This document shows, piece by piece, positions 14,323-41,017 of a stretch of 47,747 nt of DNA. How positions within the stretch are numbered: the stretch's first letter is position 1; the number at the start of each line of letters is the position of its first letter. This DNA is from Nitrospinota bacterium (GTDB lineage: Bacteria; Nitrospinota_A; UBA7883; JACRGQ01). A program made the translations under genes and the position numbers. The notes beneath the pieces were generated by a model. It was not told where the DNA came from. It was given only the letters and a program-made list of their open reading frames with translations, and searched no databases. The stretch spans positions 1-47,747 of the forward strand of contig JACRGQ010000012.1 of the NCBI GenBank assembly GCA_016217735.1, written 5' to 3'.

Positions 14323-14393
14323 CGTTGGGTTTCCTTTCACGCCGCCATTTTCCCATCCTTCGGAACGATACGCAACCGGAACGCCAACATTAT

Positions 14394-19721: not shown

Positions 19722-22700
19722 ATCGCGGTGCCGTTCTTTTCCAGCTGTTCCAGCAGCATCAATGCATCGCCGTGCTCCGGGTTGAAGATGAGGATGCGGT
19801 CAAGCGCTTCCCGCGCTTCGCCGTATTTCCCCTGCTGATAGTAAACGCCCGCCAGTCCGAATAGCAGATCGAGATTCGCCGGGTGGAGTTCGAGGTACTC
19901 CGTCAGCGATTTTTCGGCCAGCGCAAAATCTTTGGTTTGATAGCAGGCCTGCACCAGCGACGAGAGGGCAATCGGGTTTTCCGGATTTGCCGCTATCGCC
20001 TTTTGATAGCAGGCTATTCCCTCTTTCTGTTTTCCCGCATGGAAGAGCGCGATACCCAGCCCGCAGAGCGCGCGGTCATTCTTCCAGTTCGCCGCCACCG
20101 CCTTTTCATAATATCCGATGGCCGTCCCGTAGTCGCCCTTGCCCAGCCGTATGGTGCCAAGACCGATATTCGCCGCTTCCACAGCCCCCAGCCGTGCCGC
20201 CTTTTCGTAGAGGCCGCCGGCTTTTGCCGCATCGTTCACGCGCATGAGAAAATCGGCGTATTTGCAGAGCGCCGCCGCGTTTTCCCCGTCATGGTCCACC
20301 GCGAGGCGCGCCGCCTCCCCGGCGGCGCGGTACCGCTTCATATCCCAATAGCGGCGCGAAAGCTCCGCCGCATGTTGCGCAATGAGCCGTTTAACGCGTT
20401 CGGCGAAGCGCTCCAACGCCGCGGGATTTTCCGACGCGGCGACGGCAAAACAGCGCTCCGGCACCAGTTCAACCAACGCGGCGCTGAAACCAGCCGCCGC
20501 TTTAACCATTTTTTCCAGGCCCGCGGGGGAAAAACGGTGCAACGGCAGGGGGTACAGTTCATTCTCCGCCAACGCCGCATCGTACGCCACGGCAAGCAAC
20601 AGGCCATCCGGTTTCAGCACATGCTTCGCCTGGGCCACCATTTCAAAAATATCTCCTGTGGCATCAAGCGCGTGATTGAGCACAAGATAGTCAAGGGTAT
20701 GCTCCGCCGCCGGCAACGGTTCCCCCGCTCCGATAACGGCGCCGTTTCCTTCCACGGCGGCGTTAATCGCCAACCGTTCGGCGGATTCATCGGCGTTTGC
20801 GTAACGGCCAAACCAATCGCGCGCCCCGGCATCTTCCCGCGCGGCCCACCAGAGTTTGAGTCCTTCCCCCAGCAAACCGCCAGCCGCCAGCGCACACCCT
20901 TCATACTTGGGGCTTTCAGCTTCGCGATAAAGATTCCGCGCGGCGCCAAACCGCCCCACGGCCATGTTGAGGTGCGCCAACCGCAGTTTTCGCTCCGGTT
21001 GGATTTCCTTCAATTCGTCCAGCATGGAATAGAGCGCGTCCGGTTCGGGCTCTTCCGTCCGCAACAGCGCGGCGCCGGCGCTCACCAGCGGGTCGTCCAC
21101 ATCCCGCCGGAAAAAATCGTCTTCAGCCACAAGCGCGCGGAACCGGGCGGGATCGAACGGCGCGATATCCCGCGCCAACGTTTCCTGGCCGTGTCCCGCC
21201 ACGATGAGATATTGGAAAACGAAAAAATTGAACATCTCGCTTTCCGAAAGGCTGTCGATCTGCCAGCGGCCGATGCGAAGGATTCCCTTGCTCCCCTCCT
21301 GATATACGTTGTCGGCGCGCTTTCCCTGAACCAACGCGGCAATAAGGCCGCAACGCTTGAGCATTTCCCGAATCTCGTGAAGGGTAAAGAAATGGATGTG
21401 CGTCCGGTCCAGCAACCCTTCGTCCTGGTAGGTAAAACGCCCTTCCATCAGTTGGTTCAGCACCGATATGTGCTGGATGTTTGGAATGCTCATCACCATC
21501 ATGCCGTCGGGCGCCAGCAGCCGTTTGTGCCGCTTGAGCAATGCTTCGGGATCGCGCAGGTGCTCCAACACGTCCGAATAGATTATGCAGTCGAAATATC
21601 CTTCCGGATACGGCAGTTCCAGCCGCTCGCTGTCACCGGCAAATACGCGATCCAACAGCTTTGCGGCTTTTTGCGCCGCCTTATTGTTGTATTCCACCCC
21701 CACCACCTCGCGGGCGGGATTTTGCCGTTTCAGAGCCTGGCCGGTCTCCCCCGCCGCGCAGCCGACCTCCAGTATCCGCATGACGGTTGACGGCACCAGT
21801 TCGACCACTTCCGGGCGGACGTTGTGGAAGTAATGCTCCGGCTTGTCCCCCAACACAACGCTTTCGCGCCGTTCGCGCAAGGTTGCGATAATCTGTTCTG
21901 CTCGGTGGGCGTAGGTATGTTTCTCCAGCACGGCGGCACGGCCATTTTCGGCGATGGATTCCCGCTCATCTTCGTGTTGCAGGTAATAGGCGGCAAGCTC
22001 TCCAACATTCGCGTCGTTATACACCACCAGATGGCGGCGGTCTTCAAAAAAATCCGCCAGTCCTTCGGCGGTATCGGTCAGCAGGAGGCTGCCGGAGCAG
22101 AGCGCCTCGAACACCCGCATGTTGAGATCATTGCGGATGGCGTTGTTGAACACGATTTTCGAGGCGGAATATAGTTCCGCCATCTCTTCAAGGAACACCC
22201 GTTCGATTTTGACGTTGAAGCGCCGCTGGAGTTTTTCCAGCAACGCGGCCCGCCGCTGATGCTGCGGGGTGATGCTGCCGGCGAAGCCGATGTCGTAACG
22301 CTTCGCCGTTTCGCGCTTGCCGTGGATTTCGGGATCGCACCCGAGCGGCAGCCAGTGAACGTTGGCAATCCCCCGTTCTTTGAACGCCGGGATATATTCC
22401 CGTTGCGCCAGGAAAACCACGTCGAACTGGCGGGCCACGTTGATGTGGCTCTCAAGATGCAGATGGGTATCGATAAAGTAGGCCGCCTTCGGAATGGCAA
22501 GCATTTCAAGGCCCGCCGGAGGACCGTCCAATCCGCTCTCCACCCAGAGAAAGAAGTCCGGGGCAAAACCTTTGGGCATTTGCCCAAGGATACCGCTGGC
22601 ATCGCGCGCGATGGCACGGGGAATATCCTGGTTGAGTATCGGCGCCTTCATGTTTTCGAGGTTCCACATCTTGAGCACTTCGGGGGGCATCGATGCGCCG

Positions 22701-23797
22701 CTCGTGACCACATGGTGGTTCTTTTCAAAAGCGCGGCGGAGGTAGTGCGCCGTGGTGGCGGGGTAGTACGCATAATCCAACCAGACACTTGCCCTGCTCA
22801 AGCGATTTCTTGCTTCAGCACCCCCGCCGCAAGCCCTTGCAATCGCTGCGTTCCAACGGGAGATGAATTTTGAAATCGGAAATTTCTCCGCCACGGTACG
22901 CCGTGCCGCTTCCCCCATTGTCTTGGCAAGGAGTTGGTCGCTGAGCAATAGTTCCAGCGAGCGGCGGAGTTTCGCCAAATCGTCACTCACAAAACCATCG
23001 CGCCCATCGGTGAGCGGCGAGCTTGGATTTGCAAGCGAAACAACCGGCATTCCGGCCGCCATCGCCTCCAGCATGGAAAGATTGTAACCGTCTTCATACG
23101 GCTCTTTGGTGGTGTTGAGATAGACGCGGCATTTGCGCAGATGGTTTTTGAGATCGTCCCAGCTTTTTGAGGGGTGACTGTCATCCAGTTGCGGGTTGTC
23201 TCCCAGCAAGGTGGTCGGCAGGCCGGAGCAAAGCTCCACCTGCTCACGGTATCCGAGCATCAGATCACGCTCCATCACCCGGTTCCCCACACGCAAGACC
23301 GCCTTCAGTTCGCCGGTATATCCGCCATACTGGTTCACATCAATGCCGGGAGGAATAACCTCTCCTTCCAAGCCCCAGTCGGCTCTTTTTTGCTCCGAGA
23401 TAAAAACCGGCAAAACCCCTTCCAGAAGCGGCTTTACTTGCTCTAAATAGGTATTCCGATCCACCGTGTTGCCACCGAGGGCTATTTCCGTACTCAATTT
23501 ATTGTGGAAAACCAGAATTTTTGGGGTTTTTTGGCAACCCCGAACCGTCAAAAGATCATTGATATTTTGACAGATTACGAGGTCGAACGATCCCTCCTCC
23601 AATCCCTTATCCATATCAGCCTTGCTGACAGTTTTGGCGGTTTTGGGAAGGGGGCGGAATTTGGCATCCCACCTTCTTTGGAGGTTTTGACCCATAACAG
23701 GTTCATAGATAAAGAAATTGTTCCCGGTCTCAGCCAAAAGGCAGATATAAGGTTCATGCCAGTTAAAAGTGAGGACATTAAGCACTTTTTTCCCCAT
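19718..23797 (-). CDS. Giant glycosyltransferase / methyltransferase / TPR protein
   Basis: A 1359-residue multidomain protein. Residues about 1-320 form a GT-B glycosyltransferase (EAMAAGMPVVSLANPSSPLT). Residues about 330-660 form a second, CgeB-like transferase (FEALCSGSLLLTDTAEGLAD). Residues about 690-840 are a SAM methyltransferase (ILEVGCAAGETGQAL, IIYSDVLEHLRDPEALLKRH). Residues about 1010-1110 look like a degenerate second methyltransferase. About 1130-1359 is a TPR array ending GKYGEAREALDRILIFNP. ATG 23797 has GGAAGGAA ten bases upstream; the frame extends to a TTG at 23821 without a better site. It heads the glycosylation operon behind a candidate sigma-54 promoter. It probably builds and methylates a glycan while holding its protein target. 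Confidence 0.85.
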   Translation of the reverse strand: MGKKVLNVLTFNWHEPYICLLAETGNNFFIYEPVMGQNLQRRWDAKFRPLPKTAKTVSKADMDKGLEEGSFDLVICQNINDLLTVRGCQKTPKILVFHNKLSTEIALGGNTVDRNTYLEQVKPLLEGVLPVFISEQKRADWGLEGEVIPPGIDVNQYGGYTGELKAVLRVGNRVMERDLMLGYREQVELCSGLPTTLLGDNPQLDDSHPSKSWDDLKNHLRKCRVYLNTTKEPYEDGYNLSMLEAMAAGMPVVSLANPSSPLTDGRDGFVSDDLAKLRRSLELLLSDQLLAKTMGEAARRTVAEKFPISKFISRWNAAIARACGGGAEARNRLSRASVWLDYAYYPATTAHYLRRAFEKNHHVVTSGASMPPEVLKMWNLENMKAPILNQDIPRAIARDASGILGQMPKGFAPDFFLWVESGLDGPPAGLEMLAIPKAAYFIDTHLHLESHINVARQFDVVFLAQREYIPAFKERGIANVHWLPLGCDPEIHGKRETAKRYDIGFAGSITPQHQRRAALLEKLQRRFNVKIERVFLEEMAELYSASKIVFNNAIRNDLNMRVFEALCSGSLLLTDTAEGLADFFEDRRHLVVYNDANVGELAAYYLQHEDERESIAENGRAAVLEKHTYAHRAEQIIATLRERRESVVLGDKPEHYFHNVRPEVVELVPSTVMRILEVGCAAGETGQALKRQNPAREVVGVEYNNKAAQKAAKLLDRVFAGDSERLELPYPEGYFDCIIYSDVLEHLRDPEALLKRHKRLLAPDGMMVMSIPNIQHISVLNQLMEGRFTYQDEGLLDRTHIHFFTLHEIREMLKRCGLIAALVQGKRADNVYQEGSKGILRIGRWQIDSLSESEMFNFFVFQYLIVAGHGQETLARDIAPFDPARFRALVAEDDFFRRDVDDPLVSAGAALLRTEEPEPDALYSMLDELKEIQPERKLRLAHLNMAVGRFGAARNLYREAESPKYEGCALAAGGLLGEGLKLWWAAREDAGARDWFGRYANADESAERLAINAAVEGNGAVIGAGEPLPAAEHTLDYLVLNHALDATGDIFEMVAQAKHVLKPDGLLLAVAYDAALAENELYPLPLHRFSPAGLEKMVKAAAGFSAALVELVPERCFAVAASENPAALERFAERVKRLIAQHAAELSRRYWDMKRYRAAGEAARLAVDHDGENAAALCKYADFLMRVNDAAKAGGLYEKAARLGAVEAANIGLGTIRLGKGDYGTAIGYYEKAVAANWKNDRALCGLGIALFHAGKQKEGIACYQKAIAANPENPIALSSLVQACYQTKDFALAEKSLTEYLELHPANLDLLFGLAGVYYQQGKYGEAREALDRILIFNPEHGDALMLLEQLEKNGTAI

Positions 23798-23861
23798 ACT
23801 CGGCACGTTCCTTCCTATCAATGGTCATTATTTTGACGCAACTATATCTTTAGTAGATAGG

Positions 23862-23947: not shown

Positions 23948-26749
23948 CTATTGAGCGCCGGGCAGTGGGACGCTTTCCGGGGCGGTAGGCCCGGTGGGAC
24001 GCGGCACCACAAGGCTCTCGGCGATTTCGGGATGCAGCCTGGCGAGTTCCTGCATGGCCTTCACCGCCTCTTGTTTCATGCCGAGATGCTGGTACGACTT
24101 GGCAAGATAAAAATACGCTTCGGGCAACTGGGTGTTGGCCTGCGTTGCCCATTGGAACAACGCGGCTGACTGCTGATAATCGCGGCGATGGTAATACAGG
24201 TAGCCGAGATCGAAAACAGAGAAGGAAAGATTCGGTTCGCGCGGAACGATACCGGCGGCCTTCCGGTAATTCTCGTACTCGGACGCGTAGTTGCTGAGCG
24301 CGTGGTCGACCCTGCCGAGCAACAGATTTGTCCGCGCTTCGAAGTAACGGTCGATGACGCCTTTAAGCTCGGCGTCGGATTCGGCGCCCGCGATCATGGG
24401 AGTAACCTTCTTCCTGAGATCGATAAGTGTTTTGAAGTTGATGACGGCATTTTCCCGCCGTTTCCAGATGTAGCGGGGAGCGGTGAATTCTATGACGGGC
24501 CGGTTATCCGTGTTTAACTCGGCTCCCTGCGTGAAATCCATCACCCCCGCTCGATCCATCACATAAAAGCTGAGAAAGCTCAGCGGGTCGCTTGCTTCGA
24601 TCATATCCCTCTTCACGGCGGGGATTTCGAGCGCGGCCGCCAGCTTGTCGGGGCGCAGGCCGAACGGTTCGGACGATCCCATCAGCAGCAACGTGGGCTG
24701 CTGGCTGTTGACATCGCCGTACCATACCGTCACATGCTCAAAGGCTGTGGCGAATGTGTGGAGTATCACCTTCAGGTTATCGGGGGAAAGCTGGTACAGC
24801 GGCAGCCACTGGGCCATCGCGCCCCCCGGTTTCAGCGCCGCCTTCACATGGCGGAAATGTTCCAGCGTGAAGAGGCTCCCCTCCCCCGCGCTATCCGGCT
24901 GAAAAAGGTCGGCGATAACAAGATCGTACTTCTTCTTCGTCATCCGTACGTAATGGCCGCCGTCCCATATGGTAAGGTGGAACCGCTTGTCGGCGATGAT
25001 GTTATGGTTATCTTTTTCAAAAAACCGCTGCACGTCCACAAGGGAAGGAACGATCTCGACGCAATCGATGCTCTTGACGGCGGAGTGCCCCCCCACCGCG
25101 CCGGAGGTAATGCCGGAGCCGAGCGAAATCACCAGAACGTCTTCGGCGTCCAGCTTAAGCAGCAGCGGCATATGACCGAACCGCACGGCAACGTCGCCGC
25201 TGGTGGCGAGCTGATAACTGTTCACCAAAAGCATCAGCGGCCCGTTGTTCTTTTCCTGGGCCACCTTCACGGTGCCGATGGCGTCCTCTTGGGTGAACAG
25301 GAGTTTGTCGCCTGTTTTTAAACCGACGCCCATATCCACGTTGAATATCCCGGTAAGCGCTACGGTTATCACGATCGCGAATCCCGATGCCGGGATGATC
25401 CACGCCGCGGCCTTCCGCCTTGAAGAAGACAGTACGGCGATGAACCCGGCAACCATGGCAACCCCCGAAACGGCGATGATGCTTTTCTGAAGCCCGAAAA
25501 TGGGGATGAGGGCAAAACCGCTGACTAGCGCGCCCACGATGCCCCCCACCGTTCCAACGGCGTACACGCCGCCCATATTCTCGCCCAGCACGCCCATATC
25601 CTTGGTGGTTACGCGGCAGATGAGCGGGTACGCAAGTCCCATCAGGAATGTCGGCAAGATGAAGGCCATGGCCATGACGATAAACATCACAATAGCGTCC
25701 GTGGTAAGGGTCATTTCGCCAAACATGATTCTAAGGGTCATGGCCATATCCACCGATTTCGCCAATATGCCGATGCTGGCCAAACCCAACAGGCCGATGC
25801 CAACCTCGGCAAGGCCGAACAGCCACATCGGATCCTTCAGCCTGTCCAAATACTTGCCGAAGAACCAGCTGCCAAACGCCATCCCCAAAAGAAAAACTGT
25901 GAGTAGGTTGCTGAAAAGGTAAACCGTCGACTTGAAAGAAACCGCAAATCCGCGCGTCCAGAGCACCTCGAACGCCATCGAGCAAAAGCCCGCCAAGAAG
26001 AACAGGGCAAGGGCGCGCCCGCGTGAAACCGAATGCGCGGTTGCCGCCGGCCCTTCCCGCTTGGCTTGTTCTTTTTTCTTCTTTGGTGTCGGGGCCGATT
26101 TTGCCCGGATCTCGGCATCCGGCGCATCCACCTTAATTTCATCCCGCGTGAACCAAATGACCGCCGCAACGGCGGCATTGAGGCAAAGGGCAATCATGAT
26201 GGCGCCCCATATCCCCAGTTGCGGAATGAGTATGAAGCCTGAAAGAAACGATCCCGCCATCGCCCCGTAGGTGTTAAAAGCGTAGATGGAACCAATGCTA
26301 AGCCCCACCCCTTCGAGGCTCTCCGTGACCATTTTTCCCATAACGGGCAGCGTTCCCCCCATCAACATCGTGGGAGGGAGCAGGATGATGAAAACCAGCA
26401 CATATCTGATAATGATCCACCCGCCGCCGGTAACCGATTCGGGGGTCATCACCGATACAATCGCGTTATCCAGCACCGTTATCAATAACGTGACCACAAG
26501 CGCGCTGATGGCAATCCCCGCCTCCATGAGCGCGTACATCTTCAGCGGGCGCTTTGCGGCATCGGTTCTTTTTCCCCAAAAGTGGCTGCCTATCGCCAAG
26601 CCCGAAAGGAACCCGGCCACCACCATTGAAACGGCATACACCGTGTTGCCAAACACGAGCGAGAGTATGCGCACCCAGCAAACCTGATAGATCAGCCCGG
26701 CGGCGCCGGATACAAAAAAACATGCAAGAAAAAGTCTATTGAGCTTCAT
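23948..26749 (-). CDS. Fused MFS-like membrane / spermidine-synthase-like / TPR protein
   Basis: A 933-residue protein. Residues 1 to about 475 hold roughly a dozen membrane helices starting FLACFFVSGAAGLIYQVCWV, the hallmark of the fused MFS/spermidine-synthase family. A Lys-rich cytoplasmic loop lies near 225. Residues about 490-740 are a SpeE-like aminopropyltransferase/SAM fold: VLVISLGSGITSGAVGGHS, YDLVIADLFQPDSAGEGSLF and ALKPGGAMAQWLPLY. Residues about 850-933 contain TPR-like helices (PEAYFYLAKSYQHLGMKQEA). The substrate is unknown in this family. It starts inside the last 14 bp of the NtrC-like regulator, so it is coupled to the sensor genes. No polyamine pathway gene is nearby. Confidence 0.85.
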   Translation of the reverse strand: MKLNRLFLACFFVSGAAGLIYQVCWVRILSLVFGNTVYAVSMVVAGFLSGLAIGSHFWGKRTDAAKRPLKMYALMEAGIAISALVVTLLITVLDNAIVSVMTPESVTGGGWIIIRYVLVFIILLPPTMLMGGTLPVMGKMVTESLEGVGLSIGSIYAFNTYGAMAGSFLSGFILIPQLGIWGAIMIALCLNAAVAAVIWFTRDEIKVDAPDAEIRAKSAPTPKKKKEQAKREGPAATAHSVSRGRALALFFLAGFCSMAFEVLWTRGFAVSFKSTVYLFSNLLTVFLLGMAFGSWFFGKYLDRLKDPMWLFGLAEVGIGLLGLASIGILAKSVDMAMTLRIMFGEMTLTTDAIVMFIVMAMAFILPTFLMGLAYPLICRVTTKDMGVLGENMGGVYAVGTVGGIVGALVSGFALIPIFGLQKSIIAVSGVAMVAGFIAVLSSSRRKAAAWIIPASGFAIVITVALTGIFNVDMGVGLKTGDKLLFTQEDAIGTVKVAQEKNNGPLMLLVNSYQLATSGDVAVRFGHMPLLLKLDAEDVLVISLGSGITSGAVGGHSAVKSIDCVEIVPSLVDVQRFFEKDNHNIIADKRFHLTIWDGGHYVRMTKKKYDLVIADLFQPDSAGEGSLFTLEHFRHVKAALKPGGAMAQWLPLYQLSPDNLKVILHTFATAFEHVTVWYGDVNSQQPTLLLMGSSEPFGLRPDKLAAALEIPAVKRDMIEASDPLSFLSFYVMDRAGVMDFTQGAELNTDNRPVIEFTAPRYIWKRRENAVINFKTLIDLRKKVTPMIAGAESDAELKGVIDRYFEARTNLLLGRVDHALSNYASEYENYRKAAGIVPREPNLSFSVFDLGYLYYHRRDYQQSAALFQWATQANTQLPEAYFYLAKSYQHLGMKQEAVKAMQELARLHPEIAESLVVPRPTGPTAPESVPLPGAQ

Positions 26750-28169
26750 GGTCGTGCTTTTTTCCGATACTGTTTTCCTGTTTATTCTTGCCTTCCACCG
26801 AGTGGCGGATATTGTCAGCTTCTTTGAGCATGCCCACCCGCTTCAATATCCGGTAGAACGACATCCTAGTCACGCCCGCCATTTCCGATGCGCGCGAAAT
26901 GTTCCCTTTATACTTCAATATCAGGCTTTCAAGATAACGTTTTTCGAACTCCTCCAAATATTTACTTCTTGCCTCCTTAAATGAAAGGCTATAGGTCTGA
27001 TCCGAATTTAGCACATTTTCCGGCAGGTGCTTGGTCATTATGATCCGCTCTTCCGTCATGGATGCCGCGCGTTCAACGGCGTTGCGCAGTTCGCGCACAT
27101 TACCCGGCCAATCGTATGCCATAAGCCGCGCCAAGGCGTCCGCGTGCAGAACCTGGCGGAGCGTCTGGTTTTTCTCCGACCTTTGCCGCAGGAAGTGATC
27201 GCACAATACCCCTATATCCTCTTTCCTGTCACGCAACGGCGGAATTACAATATTGATGACGTTGAGGTAATAGTAAAGGTTTTCGCGGAATTTTTTTTCC
27301 GCGATGGCGGCCTGAAGGTCCGCGGACGTGGATGTTATCACGCGGATATCAAGCTGTTTCGTCTGCCATTCGGCGTTTTCATACACCTTGCGGCTTTGCA
27401 GAATGCGTAAAAGGCGGGCCTGCATGGCCATGTCGAGGTCTTCCACCTGCTTAATGTACAGCGTCCCCCCGTTGGCGGCCTCGAACACGTTTGTTTCGTG
27501 GGGCGCCTTCTCCCCGGTGCCGCTGTATGGCAGAATTTTCATCATTTCGCTCGATAGGACGCTATAGTCCACGATAATGAACGGGCCGTTCACCCGCTTG
27601 CTGTGCAGATGAACCGCACGGGCGGCAAGCTCCTTGCCCGTTCCCGTTTCACCCTGTATGAATACGTTGGAATCGGTTGCGGCGATCCGCTTTATCTGCT
27701 CCTCCACGACGATAAACTTGGGATGTTTGCCGACGAAATAATGGTCAAAATAACCGGCCTGGAGTTTCCGTTTAAGATCCGTGTTCTCTTTTTGCAACAG
27801 ATGCTGATCCACCGCGCGGCGCATGGTTATCAGCAGTTGATCGGAGGTGAAAGGCTTTGTGAGATAATCAAACGCCCCCACCTTCACCGCATCCACCACT
27901 TTATCGATGGTTGCATGCGCCGAGATCATAACAACTGGGATATGTGGAAACGCATTCTTGACTTCCTTCAGGATAACCATTCCGTCCTTGCCGGGCATTA
28001 AAAAGTCGGTCACCACCACGGCCGGCTTGTGCTCCCGCACAAGATCCAGCACGTTCAGGCTGGATGAAGAGGTCACACAACGAAACGAGTCGCCATCCAG
28101 GATGCGCGCGCAATTTTCAAGCAGATCAGGCTCGTCATCAACAAACAGTATCGTGACCGGTTCGGTCAT
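26736..28169 (-). CDS. NtrC-like response regulator with a degenerate sigma-54 ATPase domain
   Basis: A 477-residue regulator. The receiver (1-125) keeps the acidic pocket DDE at 11-13, phospho-acceptor Asp55 in VTDFLMPG, Ser83 and Lys105. The AAA+ domain (about 145-375) keeps Walker A GETGTGKE (173-180). The region that should hold GAFTGA is shortened to KILPYSGTGEKAPHET, and Walker B reads GGTLYIKQVEDL, with Lys240-Gln241 where Asp-Glu is expected. FRENLYYYL replaces FRxDLYYRL. A Fis-type helix-turn-helix (KGNISRASEMAGVTRMSFYR) closes it. The protein should bind DNA but is unlikely to drive sigma-54 RNA polymerase. It overlaps the kinase stop (ATGA) and is the kinase's presumed partner. Confidence 0.9.
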   Translation of the reverse strand: MTEPVTILFVDDEPDLLENCARILDGDSFRCVTSSSSLNVLDLVREHKPAVVVTDFLMPGKDGMVILKEVKNAFPHIPVVMISAHATIDKVVDAVKVGAFDYLTKPFTSDQLLITMRRAVDQHLLQKENTDLKRKLQAGYFDHYFVGKHPKFIVVEEQIKRIAATDSNVFIQGETGTGKELAARAVHLHSKRVNGPFIIVDYSVLSSEMMKILPYSGTGEKAPHETNVFEAANGGTLYIKQVEDLDMAMQARLLRILQSRKVYENAEWQTKQLDIRVITSTSADLQAAIAEKKFRENLYYYLNVINIVIPPLRDRKEDIGVLCDHFLRQRSEKNQTLRQVLHADALARLMAYDWPGNVRELRNAVERAASMTEERIIMTKHLPENVLNSDQTYSLSFKEARSKYLEEFEKRYLESLILKYKGNISRASEMAGVTRMSFYRILKRVGMLKEADNIRHSVEGKNKQENSIGKKHDHEAQ

Positions 28170-30145
28170 TTATCATCCCCCCGTTGAGCGGCGTTGTCTG
28201 AAAGAACCGGGGCGCTTGACGCGCGAACCAAGTGGATAGTGAACACCGTGCCGGTTCCCGGCTCGCTTTCGACGTTAATGAAGCCGCCCGTATCCTTGAC
28301 CAACCCATAGCTTATGGCAAGCCCCAGTCCGGTGCCGGACCCCACCTCTTTGGTGGTGAAAAACGGCTCGAAAATGCGATCCACTATTTCGGGCTTCATC
28401 CCATGCCCCGTGTCGCGCACTTCAAGAAAAATCCCGCCTTCGCTGTCCAGCCCGCTTCTCACCGTGATCGTGCCTCCCTCATCCGTTGCCTGGAAGGCAT
28501 TATGCACGATGTTGTATATCACCTGTTCGATGCCGGAAACATTCAAGCTCGCCTTTGGCAACCCAGGCTCCAGTTTCCGCGCAAGCGTTATCCCTTTTTT
28601 CCTGATCGGCAATTCGATAAGGCTGAGGACACGCTCGACAATCTCGTTTAAATCCGCGGCCGCCAGTTCGGTCGAAGCGCTCCGCGAAAAGGTGAGCAGG
28701 TTTGCCGCTATCGCGCCTATCCGCACGGAGTGGTTGTAAAGCACCTCGATATCCCTCTTCAGCATATCCGTCTTGCCCTTTTCGATATCCTTTTTCATGA
28801 GTTCCAGCCGGGTGATCAGTATCGAAATGGGATTGTTTATCTCATGCGCCACGCCAGCGGCTAAAAAACCTATCGCCGCCAGCTTTTCCGCCTGCATAAG
28901 CTTCCGTTCCACCTTCTTGATGTGGGTCGAACGTTCTTCCACCTTGTTCTCCAGCGATTGACTGTACTCTTGCAGAAAGTCCGCCATCATATTGTACGCA
29001 TTGGCCAAGGATTCTATTTCGTCCCCCGACCGTATTTTCAGGCGATGATCCAGCTTTCGCTGGCGAATCTGCTCAACACCCTCCCGAAGCTTTTCAAGAT
29101 CGCGGGTAAGCGTGTAGGAAACGGCCGCGGCCACAAGAAGGCAGAGAAAAAGCGCCTCGGCCAATCCCACCAGGTATTCTTTTTTTATTTTATTCATTGC
29201 CGGGATGAAGCTGGCCCGCGGATAGCGGTCATACACCACGTAATAAAAGTCCTTGTTCCCGGCCTGAAGATATATCGGCCGAAACGCAAAAATATAATCA
29301 GGATCGTCTGTGATCAGCCCCGTCCTCCCCGATAATATCTGTGCCGCCACCTGGCCGGAATGGTCGTTCCGTATGTTCCCCTCGTCAAGGAAAGACTGGC
29401 CCGCGCCGGGCGCCTTAAACGGATTGTAGATATAGTTTCCGTTTTGCGAGACCATCGCGGCTTTTCGCCTGCCCTCAAAAGAAACGCGTTTCAGCGCCCC
29501 GATAATATTGGAGCTGTCAAGATCCGCGTAAACGACACCGCTGGGTTTGCCGCTGCGGGAGAACATTTTGGTGGCGAACCGGATGAGCGGTTGGCTGGAA
29601 ATATCCGCGCGGTTGCTGACCATGGTGTACATCGGGATGGCCGCTATGCCGTACCCGCCCTGAAACGCCGCCTCCACATAATACGTCGAAGTAAGGCGGT
29701 TGACCAGCTTATCCGGCGGCGTGGTAATTATTTTATCATTATTCTTAAACATTACCAGCTTTTCGTTTCCGAACTCGTCCAACAACCCGACGCCCGAATA
29801 ACCGGAGCGCAACGAAAGGAAGTTGTAAAATTCCCTCTCGACCAGCGATTTCCAATAAAGCGTCCCGGTGGGTTTCCTGCCAGGAACATTAACAAGGAAT
29901 TCTATCGCCAAGCTGGAGCGCAGATAGTTGACATCCGTAAGCACATTTTTAAATGCCGCTTCGATCTCCTTGGAGCGCGTTATGGCATTCTGGAAAACCA
30001 GCCTGGTCTCCCTGTCCTCAATGGAATCCCGCGTTGCGTTCAGGTTCTGGTAGAGGAAATAGCCGATAGGCAGGAACGTCACCAGCAAAAGCGCAAGGGT
30101 GAACTTCTTCCATATGCGGTTGTAGAGCGGCCTGAACGGATTCAT
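28166..30145 (-). CDS. Membrane sensor histidine kinase (Cache-HAMP-HisKA-HATPase)
   Basis: A 659-residue kinase. The first membrane helix is at about 14-34. A long periplasmic region of about 290 residues has Cache-like features (VVYADLDSSNIIGALKR, FAFRPIYLQAG). The second helix is at about 324-346, HAMP at about 347-400, and a coiled segment leads to HisKA with phospho-acceptor His434 in AAGVAHEINNPIS. The ATP-binding domain has IVHNAFQA, DTGHGM and GSGTGLGL. It starts 11 bp after the upstream FGE-like gene and overlaps the regulator as ATGA. The periplasmic input domain and the exported neighbours upstream point to an extracytoplasmic ligand sensed directly or through those proteins. Confidence 0.93.
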   Translation of the reverse strand: MNPFRPLYNRIWKKFTLALLLVTFLPIGYFLYQNLNATRDSIEDRETRLVFQNAITRSKEIEAAFKNVLTDVNYLRSSLAIEFLVNVPGRKPTGTLYWKSLVEREFYNFLSLRSGYSGVGLLDEFGNEKLVMFKNNDKIITTPPDKLVNRLTSTYYVEAAFQGGYGIAAIPMYTMVSNRADISSQPLIRFATKMFSRSGKPSGVVYADLDSSNIIGALKRVSFEGRRKAAMVSQNGNYIYNPFKAPGAGQSFLDEGNIRNDHSGQVAAQILSGRTGLITDDPDYIFAFRPIYLQAGNKDFYYVVYDRYPRASFIPAMNKIKKEYLVGLAEALFLCLLVAAAVSYTLTRDLEKLREGVEQIRQRKLDHRLKIRSGDEIESLANAYNMMADFLQEYSQSLENKVEERSTHIKKVERKLMQAEKLAAIGFLAAGVAHEINNPISILITRLELMKKDIEKGKTDMLKRDIEVLYNHSVRIGAIAANLLTFSRSASTELAAADLNEIVERVLSLIELPIRKKGITLARKLEPGLPKASLNVSGIEQVIYNIVHNAFQATDEGGTITVRSGLDSEGGIFLEVRDTGHGMKPEIVDRIFEPFFTTKEVGSGTGLGLAISYGLVKDTGGFINVESEPGTGTVFTIHLVRASSAPVLSDNAAQRGDDK

Positions 30146-30156
30146 CTGGGGCGAAG

Positions 30157-30978
30157 CTACTCCGCATCCTTAACGCACCTGAAGGTTATTATATGGCTCC
30201 TTGATTCAACCGGAACGGACTCCCTGTAGGCCGCCCGGGCGGTTATATTGAGGTCAACCCACGAGGCCCCCTTTAACACGGCCATATCTTTATGGGCGGG
30301 ATCAAGCGTGGCGGTCCATTCCCGCGAGTTCCCGGCCATGTCGTGCGCGCCGTAAGGGCTTACATCGCCCGGCGCCAACCCAACCTTATTTCCGGTGTTC
30401 ACCTTACAAAAACCATGCTCGATAAACTCGAGATTGGAATCAGCCGTTGCGGCCATATTTGGATCAAACTTGTTTCCCCATGGAAACACCCTGCCATCCG
30501 TGCCGCGGGCCGCCTTCTCCCACTCCTCTTCAGTGGGAAGCCTCTTATGCGCCCATTTCGCATAGGCCTCGGCATCCTCCTTGTTTACATACAGAACGGG
30601 GTTGTCGGGAGAATCCGCGGGATAGGTTCCGCCGCTCCAGTGCTGGGGAGCGGCGTGACCGGTTTGTTTTATGAACTCCATGTATTTCCGGTTGGTCACC
30701 TCATAGATGTCGATATAAAAAGCTTTCAGCTTCACCTTCCTTTTAGGCATCTCGGTTTCGAAAGGGTAATCCTTGTAAAGTACCCTTCCGCCAAACTCCT
30801 TTTTCATGGAATCGATTTCCTGTTGGGTGCTCCCCATCAGGAAATCGCCCGCGGGAACCAATGCCATCCCTTCGGGCGCGGGCTTCACCCCGCCGTTTGA
30901 CGAATGCGCGGTGTGGTGAAATGCCAAAAACAGCACAGTGAACGTAACCGCGGCCGCTTGCTTTGCCGAAATTTTCAT
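30157..30978 (-). CDS. Exported FGE/SUMF1-family protein lacking catalytic cysteines
   Basis: A 273-residue protein with a signal peptide (AAAVTFTVLFLAFHHTAHS) and a complete FGE-sulfatase fold: GMALVPAGDFLMGS, FYIDIYEVTNRKYMEFIKQ, AEAYAKWAHKRLPTEEEWEK, GRVFPWGNKFDP, SPYGAHDMAGNSREWT and FRCVKDAE. In formylglycine-generating enzymes the segment after KGGS carries the two copper-binding active-site cysteines. Here it reads KGASWVDLNITARAAYRES with none. It is therefore probably a binding or structural member rather than a sulfatase-activating oxidase. AAGGAG lies five bases before ATG 30978, which overlaps the stop of the binding-lipoprotein gene. Confidence 0.88.
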   Translation of the reverse strand: MKISAKQAAAVTFTVLFLAFHHTAHSSNGGVKPAPEGMALVPAGDFLMGSTQQEIDSMKKEFGGRVLYKDYPFETEMPKRKVKLKAFYIDIYEVTNRKYMEFIKQTGHAAPQHWSGGTYPADSPDNPVLYVNKEDAEAYAKWAHKRLPTEEEWEKAARGTDGRVFPWGNKFDPNMAATADSNLEFIEHGFCKVNTGNKVGLAPGDVSPYGAHDMAGNSREWTATLDPAHKDMAVLKGASWVDLNITARAAYRESVPVESRSHIITFRCVKDAE

Positions 30979-32387
30979 AGTGGCTCCTTAACGGCCACGA
31001 AGCGGTACTGGTTGCCCTTGCTTTTCACTTCAAAAAGAAACGGTTCCTTGATAGCCTCGCGGTTCTTATCCATGGTGGTCTTGCCGGTCACGCCTTCATA
31101 ATCCTTCACTTCCGCGAGGGCATTCCGGATATGGCTCGGCCGCAATGACTTGGCCTTTTCCACCGCTTTCGCCAGCATATAATACGCATCGTAACTCAAA
31201 GCGGCCACCCGCGACGGCATGCGATTGTACTTTTTCTTGAAATTGGCCACAAATGTTTTAATGCGCGGATTGTCCGAATCCTCATTGAAGCCGCCATACA
31301 CAATCGTCCCGGCGGCGGCCGCGCCCAAAGCGGTAAATTCCGGAACGATAAGATCCTCCGCCCCCACCATGGGAATTTTCAACCCCATCTTCCTCATCTC
31401 CTTGATCACTTGGGCCCCTTCCGCCCCGTCACCGGTGTAAATGATCGCGTCGGGAGGATTGTTTTTGAGCTTTTTCAGTTGCGCCGGTATGCTGGCCTCG
31501 TCTTGGCCGACGTGGCTCATCTCCGGCGACAGGAGGTACAGCTCATGCGTAAGTTCGGCTTTGTTCGTCTCAATCTCGAGTTTGAACGCCGCCGACAATT
31601 TGACGGAATAGTCGTTAACCAACGAAGTGAATAACGCGAACTTTTTAATCTTTTTCTCGGCGACAACATACTCCATAAGCCGCTTTATCGCGTGGTTGTC
31701 ATTAAGAGTGTTGCGGAAATAGTAAGGTCCGGTATCCCCCAGCCGCCGCCGCGAGCCGGCGGATATTAAAATCAGTTGATTATCATTAATGGCCTTGCTG
31801 GCCGAAAAGCTTACCTCTCCGGTCGGAGCGCCGATAATGGCGGCGACATTTTCATGGAGGAAGTTGTTAACGCCGGCCCGCGCTCCGTCCATGGTACCCT
31901 TCGTGTCAAAAACCAGAAGATCGTACTTTTGGCCCCGGATACCGCCGTGATCGTTTATTTCATCAGATGCCATTTCCGCCCCATCCACCGTATCTTTACC
32001 GAAAACCTCAACATCGCCAACCAATGGGGCAAGAACCGCTATTTTATTCGCACGTGGCCGTTCCTTCTCAATTTGCGCTTCGGTTCTTACGCCAAAACCG
32101 TATTCGGCTGGAGCTTTTTCCGCGGTCGAAGGATCGTAAAGGGGGGTTTTGGATGGATCATGTAAATCATCCTTGAAATCGCTTTCCCGTTTCGCCCTTT
32201 TATCCATGACCGACTCATCCGGCATTTCCCCTAAAATATTCTTCTCGTCAATATCTGATTTTTTGGTCGTTTTATTCTCTTGGCCGCCGCTGCATCCGGC
32301 TGAAAAAGCGGTAAGCGTGAAAACTAAAACAAAAGAAGACAGAAAAATCGGGCCTAAACGCAAAATATTTTGGCTTATTATCCCCAT
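30975..32387 (-). CDS. Periplasmic binding lipoprotein (Peripla_BP_6, LivJ/LpoA-like)
   Basis: A 470-residue lipoprotein. A hydrophobic signal (FLSSFVLVFTLTAFSAGC) ends in Cys32. A charged linker of about 80 residues follows, then the two-lobed type-1 binding fold: KIAVLAPLVGDVEVFGKDTV, NDHGGIRGQKYDLLVFDTKG, NFLHENVAAIIGAPTGEVSF, PDAIIYTGDGAEGAQVIKEM and RVAALSYDAYYMLAKAVEKA. No ABC permease or ATPase for amino acids is nearby, so a sensory or peptidoglycan-enzyme-activating role is more likely than import. ATG 32387 gives a proper signal peptide but has a weak ribosome-binding site. Longer starts to 32540 would overlap the divergent gene. Confidence 0.85.
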   Translation of the reverse strand: MGIISQNILRLGPIFLSSFVLVFTLTAFSAGCSGGQENKTTKKSDIDEKNILGEMPDESVMDKRAKRESDFKDDLHDPSKTPLYDPSTAEKAPAEYGFGVRTEAQIEKERPRANKIAVLAPLVGDVEVFGKDTVDGAEMASDEINDHGGIRGQKYDLLVFDTKGTMDGARAGVNNFLHENVAAIIGAPTGEVSFSASKAINDNQLILISAGSRRRLGDTGPYYFRNTLNDNHAIKRLMEYVVAEKKIKKFALFTSLVNDYSVKLSAAFKLEIETNKAELTHELYLLSPEMSHVGQDEASIPAQLKKLKNNPPDAIIYTGDGAEGAQVIKEMRKMGLKIPMVGAEDLIVPEFTALGAAAAGTIVYGGFNEDSDNPRIKTFVANFKKKYNRMPSRVAALSYDAYYMLAKAVEKAKSLRPSHIRNALAEVKDYEGVTGKTTMDKNREAIKEPFLFEVKSKGNQYRFVAVKEPL

Positions 32388-32451
32388 TTTGGGGTAAGAT
32401 TCCGTAGTTGGTTGGGTGAGGGTTTTGGACCGTTTGTTTAGGAGAAGCGTC

Positions 32452-33096
32452 TTGCTAAGTTTAAGAAATTTTATCATCGTATTAGTTTCCTTGTTCTTTA
32501 TTGCCATTGTTCCTAAATCGTTTGCCGAATCCGGAAGCATGGTTGAGATCCCTGCCGGGGATTATAAGTCCGGCCCAAGTAAAAAGACAGTTAAAGTGGA
32601 AAAGTTCAGTATCGATACTAACGAAGTTACCAACGCCCAATATAAAGAATTCAGAAAAGAATTCGAAATCCCCGCGGGAAAAGAAAAACATCCCGTCGCG
32701 GAAATTTCCTATTTCGATGCGGAAGCATACTGCAAAGCCGTTGGCAAAAGGCTTCCCACGCGGAACGAGTGGGAAAAAGCGGCGCGCGGCACGGACGACA
32801 GGGAATACCCGTGGGGTAGCAAGTTCGAAAAGGGCAAAGCCAATACGCTTGAATCGGAAAAAAACGGAACTACGCCGGTGGGCAGCTACCCCAAAGGGGC
32901 AAGTCAGTACGGCGTAATGGATATGGCCGGTAACCTGTGGGAATGGGTCGATGCCTGGGACAGCGGTGAAAAGAAATATCGCATTGCCATGGGAGGCTCC
33001 TATTTCGAGGACGGAGACATGTCGAAGGTCTATACCGAACTCAAATCGATTCCGGATGACCAGCATGAATATATGGGATTCCGCTGCGCCAAGTGA
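32452..33096 (+). CDS. Second exported FGE/SUMF1-family protein lacking catalytic cysteines
   Basis: A 214-residue protein. TTG 32452 was chosen because AGGAG lies seven bases upstream and a clean signal peptide follows (LSLRNFIIVLVSLFFIAIVP then KSFA). The 32416 ATG has no such site. The compact FGE fold shows SMVEIPAGDYKSGP, FSIDTNEVTNAQYKEFRKE, AEAYCKAVGKRLPTRNEWEK, REYPWGSKFEKG, YGVMDMAGNLWEWVD and MGFRCAK. The catalytic segment is GGSYFEDGDMSKVYTELKS, without cysteines. It faces the binding-lipoprotein gene across a very short shared promoter region and is a paralogue of the FGE-like protein in that operon. A periplasmic binding role is inferred. Confidence 0.85.
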   Translation: MLSLRNFIIVLVSLFFIAIVPKSFAESGSMVEIPAGDYKSGPSKKTVKVEKFSIDTNEVTNAQYKEFRKEFEIPAGKEKHPVAEISYFDAEAYCKAVGKRLPTRNEWEKAARGTDDREYPWGSKFEKGKANTLESEKNGTTPVGSYPKGASQYGVMDMAGNLWEWVDAWDSGEKKYRIAMGGSYFEDGDMSKVYTELKSIPDDQHEYMGFRCAK

Positions 33097-33136
33097 ATTA
33101 ACGCTAAAACAACGTGACGGAAGAGGGATTGACGTG

Positions 33137-33568
33137 ATGGAGAGGTTGCGCCGGGAATTGGCTTTGTTTCTTCTTTTAGCCCTCATCTTCACCGGTTGCT
33201 CGAAGAAAATGGGCGGCACAGAAAGCGGAAGCTCCAAAAAAGGGGCGGTTTCCAGCAATTTCTACACCCCTTCCCCTGAAGACATCATAAAAGACCCGGA
33301 AACGGGTCTTGATGTAACGAAAAACATCTTAAACATTACCTTCTCCAAAAAAATGGACGAAACGGCCATTAAAGCGGTCATTTCGTCCATCAACGGCGAA
33401 ATCGTGGGCCAAGACAGAGCGGCACGGCTTTACCAGGTACGTATTAAAAACGCGACGAGCCTTGACGACCTCGACAAAATCGGCACTAAGCTGCTTGCCG
33501 AGAAAGGGGTGGAAGTCGTTTCTAGCAATTTCGTCTCCGTCCATACCGATCCTTTCTACGTCAGGTAG
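33137..33568 (+). CDS. Lipoprotein with protease-prodomain-like domain
   Basis: A 143-residue lipoprotein with signal ALFLLLALIFTGC (Cys21). After a Ser/Lys-rich linker, residues about 55-140 read NILNITFSKKMDETAIKAVI, GEIVGQDRAARLYQVRIKN and ATSLDDLDKIGTKLLAEKGV. This strand-helix-strand pattern resembles the propeptide or inhibitor fold of S8 subtilisin-like proteases, but no protease domain follows. It may inhibit or chaperone a protease in trans; that is inference. ATG 33137 and the GTG just before it are both possible starts, with GAGG upstream. The last eight bases overlap the end of the convergent lipoprotein gene. Confidence 0.7.
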   Translation: MERLRRELALFLLLALIFTGCSKKMGGTESGSSKKGAVSSNFYTPSPEDIIKDPETGLDVTKNILNITFSKKMDETAIKAVISSINGEIVGQDRAARLYQVRIKNATSLDDLDKIGTKLLAEKGVEVVSSNFVSVHTDPFYVR

Positions 33569-33899
33569 CCGGCATGATCTCCAGCTTGCGAAGAACTATG
33601 CCCACTTCCTTGTTATAGAATTCAACGTACCCTTGCAATTTAGGGTCGGCGGCCTGTAACGCATCCAAAGCTTTCTTGGCCTCGGCGAAAGGAACCACGT
33701 CGGCCGCTTCCACCCGTATGATGGTGTTTTCCCCTTCTTTCTTCACTTCATACACCTTCCATTCGGGATTGATCTTGGTGAATGCGGCCTGGTACTTGTC
33801 CTCCTCGCCGCCGCCGCTGGAACAGGCGGTAAAAACCAAAGCCAGCACGGCCACGGCCGCAAGCGTCTTTACATTTCTGATAACTGCATCCATCTTCAT
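33561..33899 (-). CDS. Small lipoprotein of unknown function
   Basis: A 112-residue lipoprotein with signal LAAVAVLALVFTAC (Cys26), a short Ser/Gly spacer and a mixed alpha/beta domain (EWKVYEVKKEGENTIIRVEA, AKKALDALQAADPKLQGYVE, FYNKEVGIVLRKLEI). I do not recognise the family. ATG 33899 has GGGAG seven bases upstream. It is the last gene of the GldA/F/G-DUF4340 block, 16 bp after the small cytochrome c gene, so it is probably co-transcribed with that exporter. Confidence 0.75.
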   Translation of the reverse strand: MKMDAVIRNVKTLAAVAVLALVFTACSSGGGEEDKYQAAFTKINPEWKVYEVKKEGENTIIRVEAADVVPFAEAKKALDALQAADPKLQGYVEFYNKEVGIVLRKLEIMPAT

Positions 33900-33915
33900 A
33901 CTTTGTCTCCCTTGG

Positions 33916-34290
33916 TTACTGAGCCACTTTCTTGTCATTTTCCTTCAGAAAATTGATGATCTCCCGCCTTGCCTTATCGTCGGCCATGATCTTAATCGCT
34001 GGCATGGCAATCCTGTATTTTTCCTTAAGCATAACCGCATCGGCATCGCCGCTTTCAATCATTGCCTTGGGGTTCTGGAGCCATTTGTCAATCCAAGCTT
34101 CGGTACGCCTGCCCGTCACTCCCTGAAATCCCGGGCCCTTGGAGGTCTGATCCGTCAGCTTATGGCAACCGCTGCAATATTTGACGTATAGCCGCTCCCC
34201 TTCCCCCTGGCCTTCCTCCGCTCTAACGCCGCTGGCCATGCTCATGACGGCCATAATGGTCAATACAAACATCTTCAAACAACGATCCAT
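33916..34290 (-). CDS. Small exported class I cytochrome c
   Basis: A 124-residue protein with a signal peptide (MFVLTIMAVMSMASGVRA) and one haem site, CSGCH (Cys39, Cys42, His43). Met96 in YRIAMPAIK is the likely sixth ligand. The order GERLYVKYCSGCHKL, GPGFQGVTGRR, WLQNPKAMIESG and ARREIINFLKEN is the usual monohaem pattern. It is a soluble periplasmic electron carrier. AAAGGAA lies eight bases before ATG 34290. Its place inside an ABC-exporter operon rather than beside an oxidase is unexpected, and its partner is unknown. Confidence 0.92.
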   Translation of the reverse strand: MDRCLKMFVLTIMAVMSMASGVRAEEGQGEGERLYVKYCSGCHKLTDQTSKGPGFQGVTGRRTEAWIDKWLQNPKAMIESGDADAVMLKEKYRIAMPAIKIMADDKARREIINFLKENDKKVAQ

Positions 34291-34314
34291 CAATTTGTTC
34301 CTTTCGCGCCGGCA

Positions 34315-34965
34315 CTACTCGATAAATGAGGTTTTAAGGCCGACTCCCGCGCTTGTCCATACAAGCTTCCCCTTCTTCATGTGGGGAAGATGCTTGGCCA
34401 CAATTTTTTTCGCCTCTTCGCTTTTGCTCCGTTCAATGTGGGGCGTCAGGCTTTCACCGCCCGAAGATTCTTTCACGTCGATTTCCACGTCAAGGGCGCC
34501 TTCGGCGTCAACTCGAATGACCGTTACACGCCATTCGCCCTTCCCCAAACCCTCAAGATCTTTCTTTATTTTCTCAAGAACTTCCTTTGAAACGCCGCCG
34601 CCGCTGGCTTTTCTCTTATCGATCACGCTTTGGTAATTCGTGCGCACAGCGGCCAGAAGCCGCTCATCGCCGGTGTTTTTCGCATACATTTGGGCCATAG
34701 TGCCCGCGATGTTGAACAGAAAATCCTGTTCCTGCGGATTAGCGCCGGGCGATACGGCGTACTCGACCATTCCCTTCACTTCTTCCGGCACTTCGGCCGC
34801 CCTGGTTTTGATGATATTAGCCATCGCGGCTTCATCTTTTTTGTCAAATGCCTCAATGAACGCATTGCCGACGCTGACCTGTTCTTCGGCTTTCACTTGG
34901 CCGGGAAACATGGCGACGCCCGCAATGATGATCGAAAACATGAAAACCGCAATTTTGTTGAACAT
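34315..34965 (-). CDS. Exported protein of unknown function
   Basis: A 216-residue protein with a signal peptide (KIAVFMFSIIIAGVAMFPGQ, cleavage near VKA). It has an all-helical first half (IEAFDKKDEAAMANIIKTRA, GTMAQMYAKNTGDERLLAAV) and a beta-rich second half (GEWRVTVIRVDAEGALDVEI, KGKLVWTSAGVGLKTSF) resembling an NTF2- or DUF4878-like domain. ATG 34965 was chosen because GGAAGG stands six bases upstream; an ATG at 34971 touches that site. It lies between DUF4340 and the cytochrome c gene in the same operon, 14 bp after DUF4340. No function can be assigned. Confidence 0.75.
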   Translation of the reverse strand: MFNKIAVFMFSIIIAGVAMFPGQVKAEEQVSVGNAFIEAFDKKDEAAMANIIKTRAAEVPEEVKGMVEYAVSPGANPQEQDFLFNIAGTMAQMYAKNTGDERLLAAVRTNYQSVIDKRKASGGGVSKEVLEKIKKDLEGLGKGEWRVTVIRVDAEGALDVEIDVKESSGGESLTPHIERSKSEEAKKIVAKHLPHMKKGKLVWTSAGVGLKTSFIE

Positions 34966-34979
34966 ATACATCCTTCCCG

Positions 34980-37930: not shown

Positions 37931-38710
37931 CTATGCCCTCCATCTTTTCGATTCAAGCGAATGCATGCTGAGAAACAAGAAGAACACCGCGAAGAGAAGA
38001 TAGTAGGTGATATCCGACGTATCCAGCACACCTCTCGCAAAAGTGTCGAAGTGCGAATGAAGCGAAATGTACTCCAGGATTATACCCATCTTTTCGCCGA
38101 CAAATCCGGCCGAAGACCCGATCATGTAGAGAACCATAAGAGAGGCGAAAGAAAGAACCGCCGCGATGACCTGGTTCTCCGTGAGGGACGACATGAATAA
38201 GCCGAGCGAAATGAACGCCCCGCCCATACACAACAGTCCGCTGTAGCCGGAGAGGATGACGCCCCATTCGGGATCGCCGAAAAACGCGACGAGCAGCAGG
38301 CACGGAAACGACAGGGAGAGCATAATGGCGAATATCCCCATGCAACCCGCGAATTTCCCCAGCACCAATTCAATATCCTTCACCGGATAGGTAAGAAGCA
38401 GCTCGATGGTGCCGGTCTTTTTCTCCTCGGAAAACGACCGCATGGTGAGCATGGGAAGCATGATGAGCATTACGATGCTCACCACGCCAAAAAACGGCCG
38501 GATCACGAATTCCGTTACGTTCAGCACGCCGTATTGGGCGGCGACCATCGGGTCGGTCTGGGCCTGGAAGCTGATGGTGCTGAATCCGGCGAAGATATTG
38601 TAAAAGTAGTAGCCGATCAGCGCGGAAAATATGGTAATCACCACGAACGCCACGGGCGAATAAAAGTACGACCGTATTTCCTTTGTCAGGATGAAAAAGA
38701 AATTCCTCAC
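37931..38710 (-). CDS. ABC-2 type permease, GldF-like
   Basis: A 259-residue permease with six membrane segments, beginning LTKEIRSYFYSPVAFVVITI. It keeps the ABC-2 landmark MLTMRSFSEEKKTGTIELLL followed by TYPVKDIELVLGKF. The start is GTG at 38710, overlapping the ATPase stop (GTGA). It forms the channel with the ATPase upstream and probably works with GldG and DUF4340 downstream. The substrate is not known. Confidence 0.92.
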   Translation of the reverse strand: MRNFFFILTKEIRSYFYSPVAFVVITIFSALIGYYFYNIFAGFSTISFQAQTDPMVAAQYGVLNVTEFVIRPFFGVVSIVMLIMLPMLTMRSFSEEKKTGTIELLLTYPVKDIELVLGKFAGCMGIFAIMLSLSFPCLLLVAFFGDPEWGVILSGYSGLLCMGGAFISLGLFMSSLTENQVIAAVLSFASLMVLYMIGSSAGFVGEKMGIILEYISLHSHFDTFARGVLDTSDITYYLLFAVFFLFLSMHSLESKRWRA

Positions 38711-39756: not shown

Positions 39757-39790
39757 AAAAAAAAGCCCCGGTTTTGAAAAAACCGGGGCT
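39757..39790 (-). terminator. Strong intrinsic terminator after the large cytochrome c gene
   Basis: AGCCCCGGTTTT at 39764-39775 and AAAACCGGGGCT at 39779-39790 make a perfect 12-bp stem with a three-base loop. On the minus strand it is followed by a run of eight T (A at 39757-39764 on the plus strand). It begins 25 bp after the cytochrome c stop codon and ends that transcript before gldA. Confidence 0.93.
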
Positions 39791-40955: not shown

Positions 40956-41001
40956 AAACTTTTGCTCCCCTAAAAAAATCGTCAATAAATACCAAAAACC
41001 C

Positions 41002-41017
41002 TGCAATCACTTTTGCA
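41002..41017. promoter_or_regulatory. Inverted repeat TGCAA-N6-TTGCA at the cytochrome c promoter
   Basis: TGCAA at 41002-41006 and TTGCA at 41013-41017 face each other across six bases, about 47 bp upstream of the cytochrome c start and beside a TATATA. The size and position suit a dimeric repressor or activator site. The family that would bind it is not identified. Confidence 0.35.

Follow-up and report, generated by a model that had tools for sequence, protein, structure and literature searches.

A seven-gene sensory and periplasmic locus of Nitrospinota is probably a largely lineage-specific arm of a clade III nitrous oxide reductase cluster

We analyzed a 47,747-nt stretch of DNA from a Nitrospinota bacterium (the window; its genome is labelled G000), with a focus on a seven-gene locus that encodes a binding lipoprotein (BP), an exported protein with the fold of formylglycine-generating enzyme (FGE1), a sensor histidine kinase (HK), an NtrC-type response regulator (RR), a fusion of major facilitator superfamily (MFS), SpeE, and tetratricopeptide repeat (TPR) parts (MFS/SpeE), a second FGE-fold protein (FGE2), and a further lipoprotein (LP2). 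The locus forms the middle of a cluster of ~20–25 genes that also holds two cytochrome b units, many c-type cytochromes, ATP-binding cassette (ABC), GldG, and DUF4340 genes, and the gene for a clade III, lactonase-type nitrous oxide reductase (L-NosZ). The features of the window are as follows:

23948–26749, minus strand: MFS/SpeE/TPR fusion, 933 aa, end gene of the five-gene operon (NF037959, Pfam, synteny)
26736–28169, minus strand: RR, receiver and helix-turn-helix (HTH) conserved, ATPase motifs gone (Pfam, alignment)
28166–30145, minus strand: HK, with periplasmic dCache, HAMP, and intact H, N, and G boxes (Pfam, structure, alignment)
30157–30978, minus strand: FGE1, exported, without the catalytic Cys pair (Pfam, alignment)
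30975–32387, minus strand: BP, Peripla_BP_6 (Pfam; homologue in second-phylum L-NosZ clusters)
32388–32451, no strand: divergent control region between BP and FGE2, ~64 bp (start assignments)
32452–33096, plus strand: FGE2, exported, no Cys pair, TTG start (Pfam, alignment, conserved Shine-Dalgarno sequence)
33137–33568, plus strand: LP2, lipoprotein with a subtilisin-prodomain-like domain (predicted structure)
33561–33938, minus strand: small lipoprotein (sLP), convergent with LP2 (conserved order)
33916–34293, minus strand: exported cytochrome c (Pfam, conserved order)
34315–34971, minus strand: exported 218-aa protein of unknown family, cluster-conserved, no Pfam match (conserved order)
34980–36341, minus strand: DUF4340 protein (also in second-phylum L-NosZ clusters)
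36363–37925, minus strand: GldG-like ABC auxiliary protein (also in second-phylum L-NosZ clusters)
37931–38710, minus strand: ABC-2 permease (also in second-phylum L-NosZ clusters)
38707–39663, minus strand: ABC ATPase (also in second-phylum L-NosZ clusters)
39764–39790, minus strand: terminator-like stem-loop, 12 pairs and a T run, which sets the ABC operon apart from the cytochromes upstream of it
39816–41006, minus strand: cytochrome c, 396 aa, with a homologue near L-NosZ in the second phylum (synteny)
41450–42061, minus strand: small protein of unknown family, cluster-conserved (synteny)
42039–43172, minus strand: cytochrome b with a CNSCH haem-c motif at its C-terminus (synteny)

In the window's open reading frames, the five minus-strand genes from BP to MFS/SpeE are tightly joined: ATGA overlaps connect BP with FGE1 and HK with RR, an 11-bp gap separates FGE1 from HK, and RR and MFS/SpeE overlap by 14 bp, all seven genes being present as given in a preliminary description of this DNA made from the sequence alone. 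Pfam supports the labels of six of them: Peripla_BP_6 for BP (4e-55); FGE-sulfatase for FGE1 and FGE2 (1.6e-44 and 3.1e-42); dCache (below cut-off), HAMP, HisKA, and HATPase for HK; Response_reg, Sigma54_activat, and HTH_8 for RR; and MFS_1, Spermine_synth, and TPR for the fusion protein, which scores 129.6 bits with NF037959 (cut-off 40). LP2 has no Pfam match. The FGE2 start was corrected to TTG 32452 on the basis of a Shine-Dalgarno sequence conserved among relatives, and the BP start is most likely ATG 32387, which sets the divergent gap at ~64 bp.

The locus is conserved within Nitrospinota. In a sample of 24 genomes of the phylum, an HK orthologue is present in 18, one copy each, and an RR orthologue adjoins it in every one; matches to the HK sensor alignment come from Nitrospinota/Nitrospinales metagenome-assembled genomes (MAGs), some deposited as 'Nitrospirae', with only weak or partial matches elsewhere. 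Gene order and strand are kept wherever the relatives' contigs reach, at ~45–93% protein identity, and loci of other families retain the window order at mostly ~45–65% identity. Specifically, the kept order is cytochrome b, cytochrome c, ABC ATPase, ABC-2 permease, GldG, DUF4340, the 34315 protein, cytochrome c, and sLP; then LP2 and FGE2; then BP, FGE1, HK, RR, and MFS/SpeE, with FGE1 undetected between BP and HK in the distant G021 locus. Such order, retained across families at ~50% protein identity, is far beyond chance. Downstream of the locus, the window holds a block of large proteins (13705–23821), one of which (19718–23821) carries glycosyltransferase, methyltransferase, and TPR domains. 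In other genera the block is not retained alongside the cluster, nor do relatives keep the glycosyltransferase and methyltransferase genes directly downstream, so that the synteny belongs to the cluster and an origin in chance or housekeeping synteny is ruled out. Four or more of the seven genes co-occur across genera, in line with the proposal of the preliminary description that they form a real, dedicated system.

Upstream of cytochrome b, the window encodes a multihaem cytochrome c554-like protein (43595–44800) and a pyridine nucleotide-disulphide oxidoreductase (45136–46563), neither with a counterpart in the relatives' loci compared. One relative of HK, 36% identical over its full length, is solitary in a Nitrospinota MAG (L098, 3892–5847), with no regulator or cluster genes beside it; the kinase match in L081 (G012) contains an in-frame TAA, reflecting either sequencing error or decay.

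According to PMC13122619, nitrous oxide reductase is the only enzyme known to convert N2O to N2, and the first description of its clade III, lactonase type dates only from 2025 (cited there as He et al., Nature 2025;646:152). In most other Nitrospinota genera, the gene next downstream of MFS/SpeE, in the same orientation, encodes a NOV5WD8W 'nitrogen cycling' protein (NF052405, 224.8 bits versus a cut-off of 170); L-NosZ comes after it, and then c18, a cytochrome b with a separate C-terminal half, a pair of Vgb-type propellers, and a second MFS/SpeE. At the other end of the cluster, relatives carry a bd-I-like/cytochrome c block, and the cluster also holds extra Vgb-type propellers and bd-I-like and EB_dh-type proteins. 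The best NCBIfam model for L-NosZ is NF052460, 'clade III lactonase-type nitrous-oxide reductase' (578 bits), and its best matches in the PDB are N2O reductase structures. A set of His residues is invariant between Nitrospinota and a second phylum, as are the Cys/Cys/His/Met residues of CuA (five second-phylum members compared, four of them above the model's cut-off). On the strength of these residues, the Nitrospinota L-NosZ is likely to reduce N2O. In L214 (3499–5301) and its homologues, Asn or Glu follows the His of the HH motif in both phyla. The window genome carries its own L-NosZ block, comprising NOV5WD8W, L-NosZ, c18, the cytochrome b halves, two Vgb propellers, and the second MFS/SpeE, on contig C36 (L249, 7169–17094); an ArsR-HTH/rhodanese fusion, a possible sulfur-sensing regulator, lies at the edge of this block (17787–18443).

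Kinase and enzyme occur together across the phylum sample. L-NosZ is present in 16 of the 18 genomes with HK (16 of 17 when only testable ones are counted) and in none of the 6 without it; the exceptions are G004, in which 24 kb are masked exactly there, and G022, an 81%-complete MAG in 600 contigs. Close orthologues of DUF4340 and FGE2 are absent from the 6 genomes without HK. Because the sample is small and its genomes are related to one another, we take this co-occurrence as supporting evidence and not as a formal test. Membership of the seven genes in the cluster is well supported.

A search with NF052460 identified six L-NosZ members in a second phylum, five of them above the cut-off. Five second-phylum loci divide the window genes into a core arm common to two phyla and an arm so far confined to Nitrospinota. 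As far as the contigs reach, the five loci contain homologues of c18, the Vgb propellers, and cytochromes c22 and c27, with cytochrome b in three, and the C-terminal cytochrome b half also has homologues among them; identities to the window are 35–38% for cytochrome c, mostly 55–61% for the ABC ATPase and ABC-2 permease, 46–48% for GldG, and ~33–37% for DUF4340. In the three loci whose contig continues, a BP homologue (32–34%) directly follows DUF4340. These clusters have no such kinase, and BP thus belongs to the ABC/GldG/DUF4340 arm. The arm so far specific to Nitrospinota would comprise FGE1, HK, RR, MFS/SpeE, FGE2, and LP2. In one further locus, G193, only cytochrome c and c18 lie near L-NosZ. 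Thioredoxin-like AhpC/TSA proteins, candidate Cu-site thiol chaperones, flank second-phylum L-NosZ clusters (L271, 11784–12329; L268, 12369–12947).

The dead ATPase ascribed to RR in the preliminary description is borne out in every cluster orthologue of alignment A2: GAFTGA and the Walker-B DE pair are missing and the second Arg finger is lost, the sequence reading GGTLYIKQV at Walker B and FRENLYYYL at the second Arg finger, with the motifs intact in control paralogues L065 and L066 of the same alignment. As a result, RR cannot remodel σ54 holoenzyme by the canonical route. The phospho-acceptor D55 and residue K105 are invariant and the Fis-type HTH is kept (HTH_8 above cut-off); as judged from these residues, RR should bind DNA and respond to phosphorylation. 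The H, N, and G boxes of HK are intact, and its sensor is predicted to adopt a periplasmic double Cache fold (pLDDT 82; dCache-type matches in the PDB with E down to 1e-11), in agreement with its earlier assignment as a Cache kinase. The HK/RR pair probably regulates the cluster and L-NosZ.

FGE1 and FGE2 both lack the catalytic Cys pair (alignments A3 and A4), consistent with their description as pseudoenzymes, and their best solved-structure alignments are to CalU17 and SUMF2; a role in active FGE/sulfatase maturation is excluded by the missing pair. LP2 is predicted by AlphaFold to form a beta-alpha-beta-beta-alpha-beta fold (pLDDT 79), and its top Foldseek matches are fervidolysin and the subtilisin BPN' prosegment (TMt 0.75, root-mean-square deviation 2.2), in accord with the protease-prodomain-like fold proposed earlier, at E values of only 0.01–0.06.

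We consider it probable that the seven genes constitute a largely Nitrospinota-specific regulatory and periplasmic arm of the clade III L-NosZ cluster, and that the upstream genes of the window constitute its core electron-transfer and assembly arm. The dCache kinase would sense a periplasmic cue, possibly together with BP and the FGE-fold proteins, and would then phosphorylate RR. Having lost ATP hydrolysis and σ54 contact, RR is proposed to act as a plain DNA-binding switch, presumably at σ70-type promoters of the cluster. The ABC/GldG/DUF4340 proteins and BP may carry out copper/sulfur-site assembly for L-NosZ, as NosDFY-L does for classical NosZ; FGE1, FGE2, and LP2 may serve as periplasmic, non-enzymatic assembly or binding proteins; and electrons would pass from quinol through the cytochrome b/c chain to L-NosZ.

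Several observations weigh against this reading. The L-NosZ block is unlinked from the operon in the window's own genus: the window genome has it on another contig, and in G001 it shares a contig with the regulator at a distance of ~75 kb. No HK, RR, FGE1, FGE2, LP2, or MFS/SpeE was observed in L-NosZ clusters of the second phylum, and L-NosZ in general thus does not require them. No regulator site shared by the BP/FGE2 gap and the NOV5–L-NosZ promoter was found; a weak TNACCCC-like palindrome occurs in some genomes with variable spacing, and the window contains no copy of the TCAATTATTTTCTTGATT block that is conserved upstream of NOV5. Near the cluster, both phyla also encode a second NtrC-type regulator, c26, which keeps the σ54 motifs; in Nitrospinota it adjoins the bd-I block, and in the second phylum its gene is divergent to that of L-NosZ. 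It is therefore not certain that the degenerate pair regulates on its own. The Nitrospinota L-NosZ proteins score 576–614 bits, under the curated NF052460 cut-off of 700, and are 52–57% identical to second-phylum members, which are mutually 64–80% identical; and one classical CuA His is Met in the L-NosZ of both phyla.

The position of c26 raises an explanation that we regard as unlikely, though the strongest of the alternatives: that a σ54-motif NtrC-type pair, c26/c38, is the true regulator, and the degenerate pair, whose RR retains receiver and HTH, only tunes, for example as a DNA competitor or as a subunit of mixed oligomers. RR is only 27–35% identical to c26, no nearer than to other NtrC proteins, and a pattern scan in genus g1 found no σ54 −24/−12 element upstream of NOV5/L-NosZ, both of which argue against it. 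Loci of σ54-motif NtrC-type regulators include L206 (1474–5156), L270 (6957–8423), and L267 (11685–14384), with a dCache kinase alongside in L206 and L267.

The low model score and the divergence from second-phylum members, together with the unusual chemistry that the Vgb-type propellers and the bd-I-like and EB_dh-type proteins suggest, would also fit a propeller enzyme that is an L-NosZ relative but does not reduce N2O, being another copper redox enzyme, with the module as its regulatory and assembly arm. However, the His residues and the CuA Cys/Cys/His/Met of second-phylum members are retained, and c18 and much of the remaining cluster are common to that phylum, which leaves this explanation somewhat less likely still.

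The preliminary description had seen in the seven genes a self-contained sensor of a periplasmic ligand or of protein quality that governs the MFS/SpeE membrane enzyme. The tight HK–RR–MFS/SpeE operon, the dCache sensor of HK, and the prodomain-like LP2 accord with it, but the class-wide embedding of the genes in a respiratory L-NosZ cluster, their nearly all-or-none co-inheritance with L-NosZ, and the travelling of BP with ABC/GldG/DUF4340 where no kinase is present make it improbable, and this part of the description is not upheld. A conventional operon for the uptake of branched-chain amino acids, accompanied by a two-component system, to which the Peripla_BP_6 domain of BP might point, can be set aside as highly improbable: NCBIfam amino-acid and urea models score far under cut-off, and no Liv-type permease is found among the annotated conserved cluster genes.

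The placement of the locus in an L-NosZ cluster bears on how this enzyme matures. Clade I and II NosZ are matured by NosDFY-L. Among the 24 phylum genomes, none has NosL and none has NosD above cut-off; because of this absence and the cluster linkage, the ABC/GldG/DUF4340/BP arm is the leading candidate for L-NosZ maturation. Literature searches on DUF4340 or GldG with nosZ returned nothing relevant. We suggest, tentatively and at somewhat below even confidence, that clade III NosZ has its own maturation machine unrelated to NosD and NosL, consisting of a GldG-type ABC exporter together with DUF4340 and a lipoprotein of the Peripla_BP_6 family. Nitrospinota would have supplemented this machine with FGE-fold chaperones that lack enzymatic activity, with a chaperone resembling a prodomain, and with a dedicated two-component system whose NtrC-type regulator is a σ54-independent pseudo-ATPase. 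The analysis thereby names candidates common to two phyla for the missing L-NosZ maturation factors, as well as candidates for the electron-transfer partners of L-NosZ and, in Nitrospinota, for a dedicated sensor pair, so that the assembly of L-NosZ and what turns it on become directly testable questions. It also points to possible N2O consumption by Nitrospinota of groundwater and the sea, and it shows, at the scale of a phylum, how an NtrC-type regulator has shed its ATPase motifs while kinase and DNA-binding parts are kept.

Several known systems resemble parts of the cluster. NtrX, Rhodobacter NtrC, and HupR are NtrC relatives without GAFTGA, and NtrX is the best NCBIfam match of RR (365.6 bits versus a cut-off of 600). 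RR shares with them an NtrC architecture unable to engage σ54 in the usual way, but differs in that every aligned cluster orthologue also lacks the Walker-B pair and second Arg finger and in that its kinase has a dCache sensor. SUMF2 (pFGE) and GldK/PorK, like FGE1 and FGE2, have the FGE fold without the Cys pair; FGE1 and FGE2 differ in being small and exported, in occurring as a pair, and in their tie to a respiratory cluster. The MFS/SpeE protein qualifies as a fused MFS/spermidine synthase of the NF037959 type, but adds TPRs and has a second paralogue in the L-NosZ block. With NosDFY-L, the cluster shares an ABC ATPase, an ABC-2 permease, and a periplasmic partner near a nosZ-type gene, and, unlike NosDFY-L, it has GldG, DUF4340, and Peripla_BP_6 in place of NosD. 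L-NosZ clusters of the two phyla have in common cytochromes b and c, Vgb propellers, and the ABC–ABC2–GldG–DUF4340–BP set; relative to the second phylum, those of Nitrospinota add FGE1, HK, the pseudo-ATPase RR, MFS/SpeE, FGE2, LP2, sLP, and a further cytochrome c.

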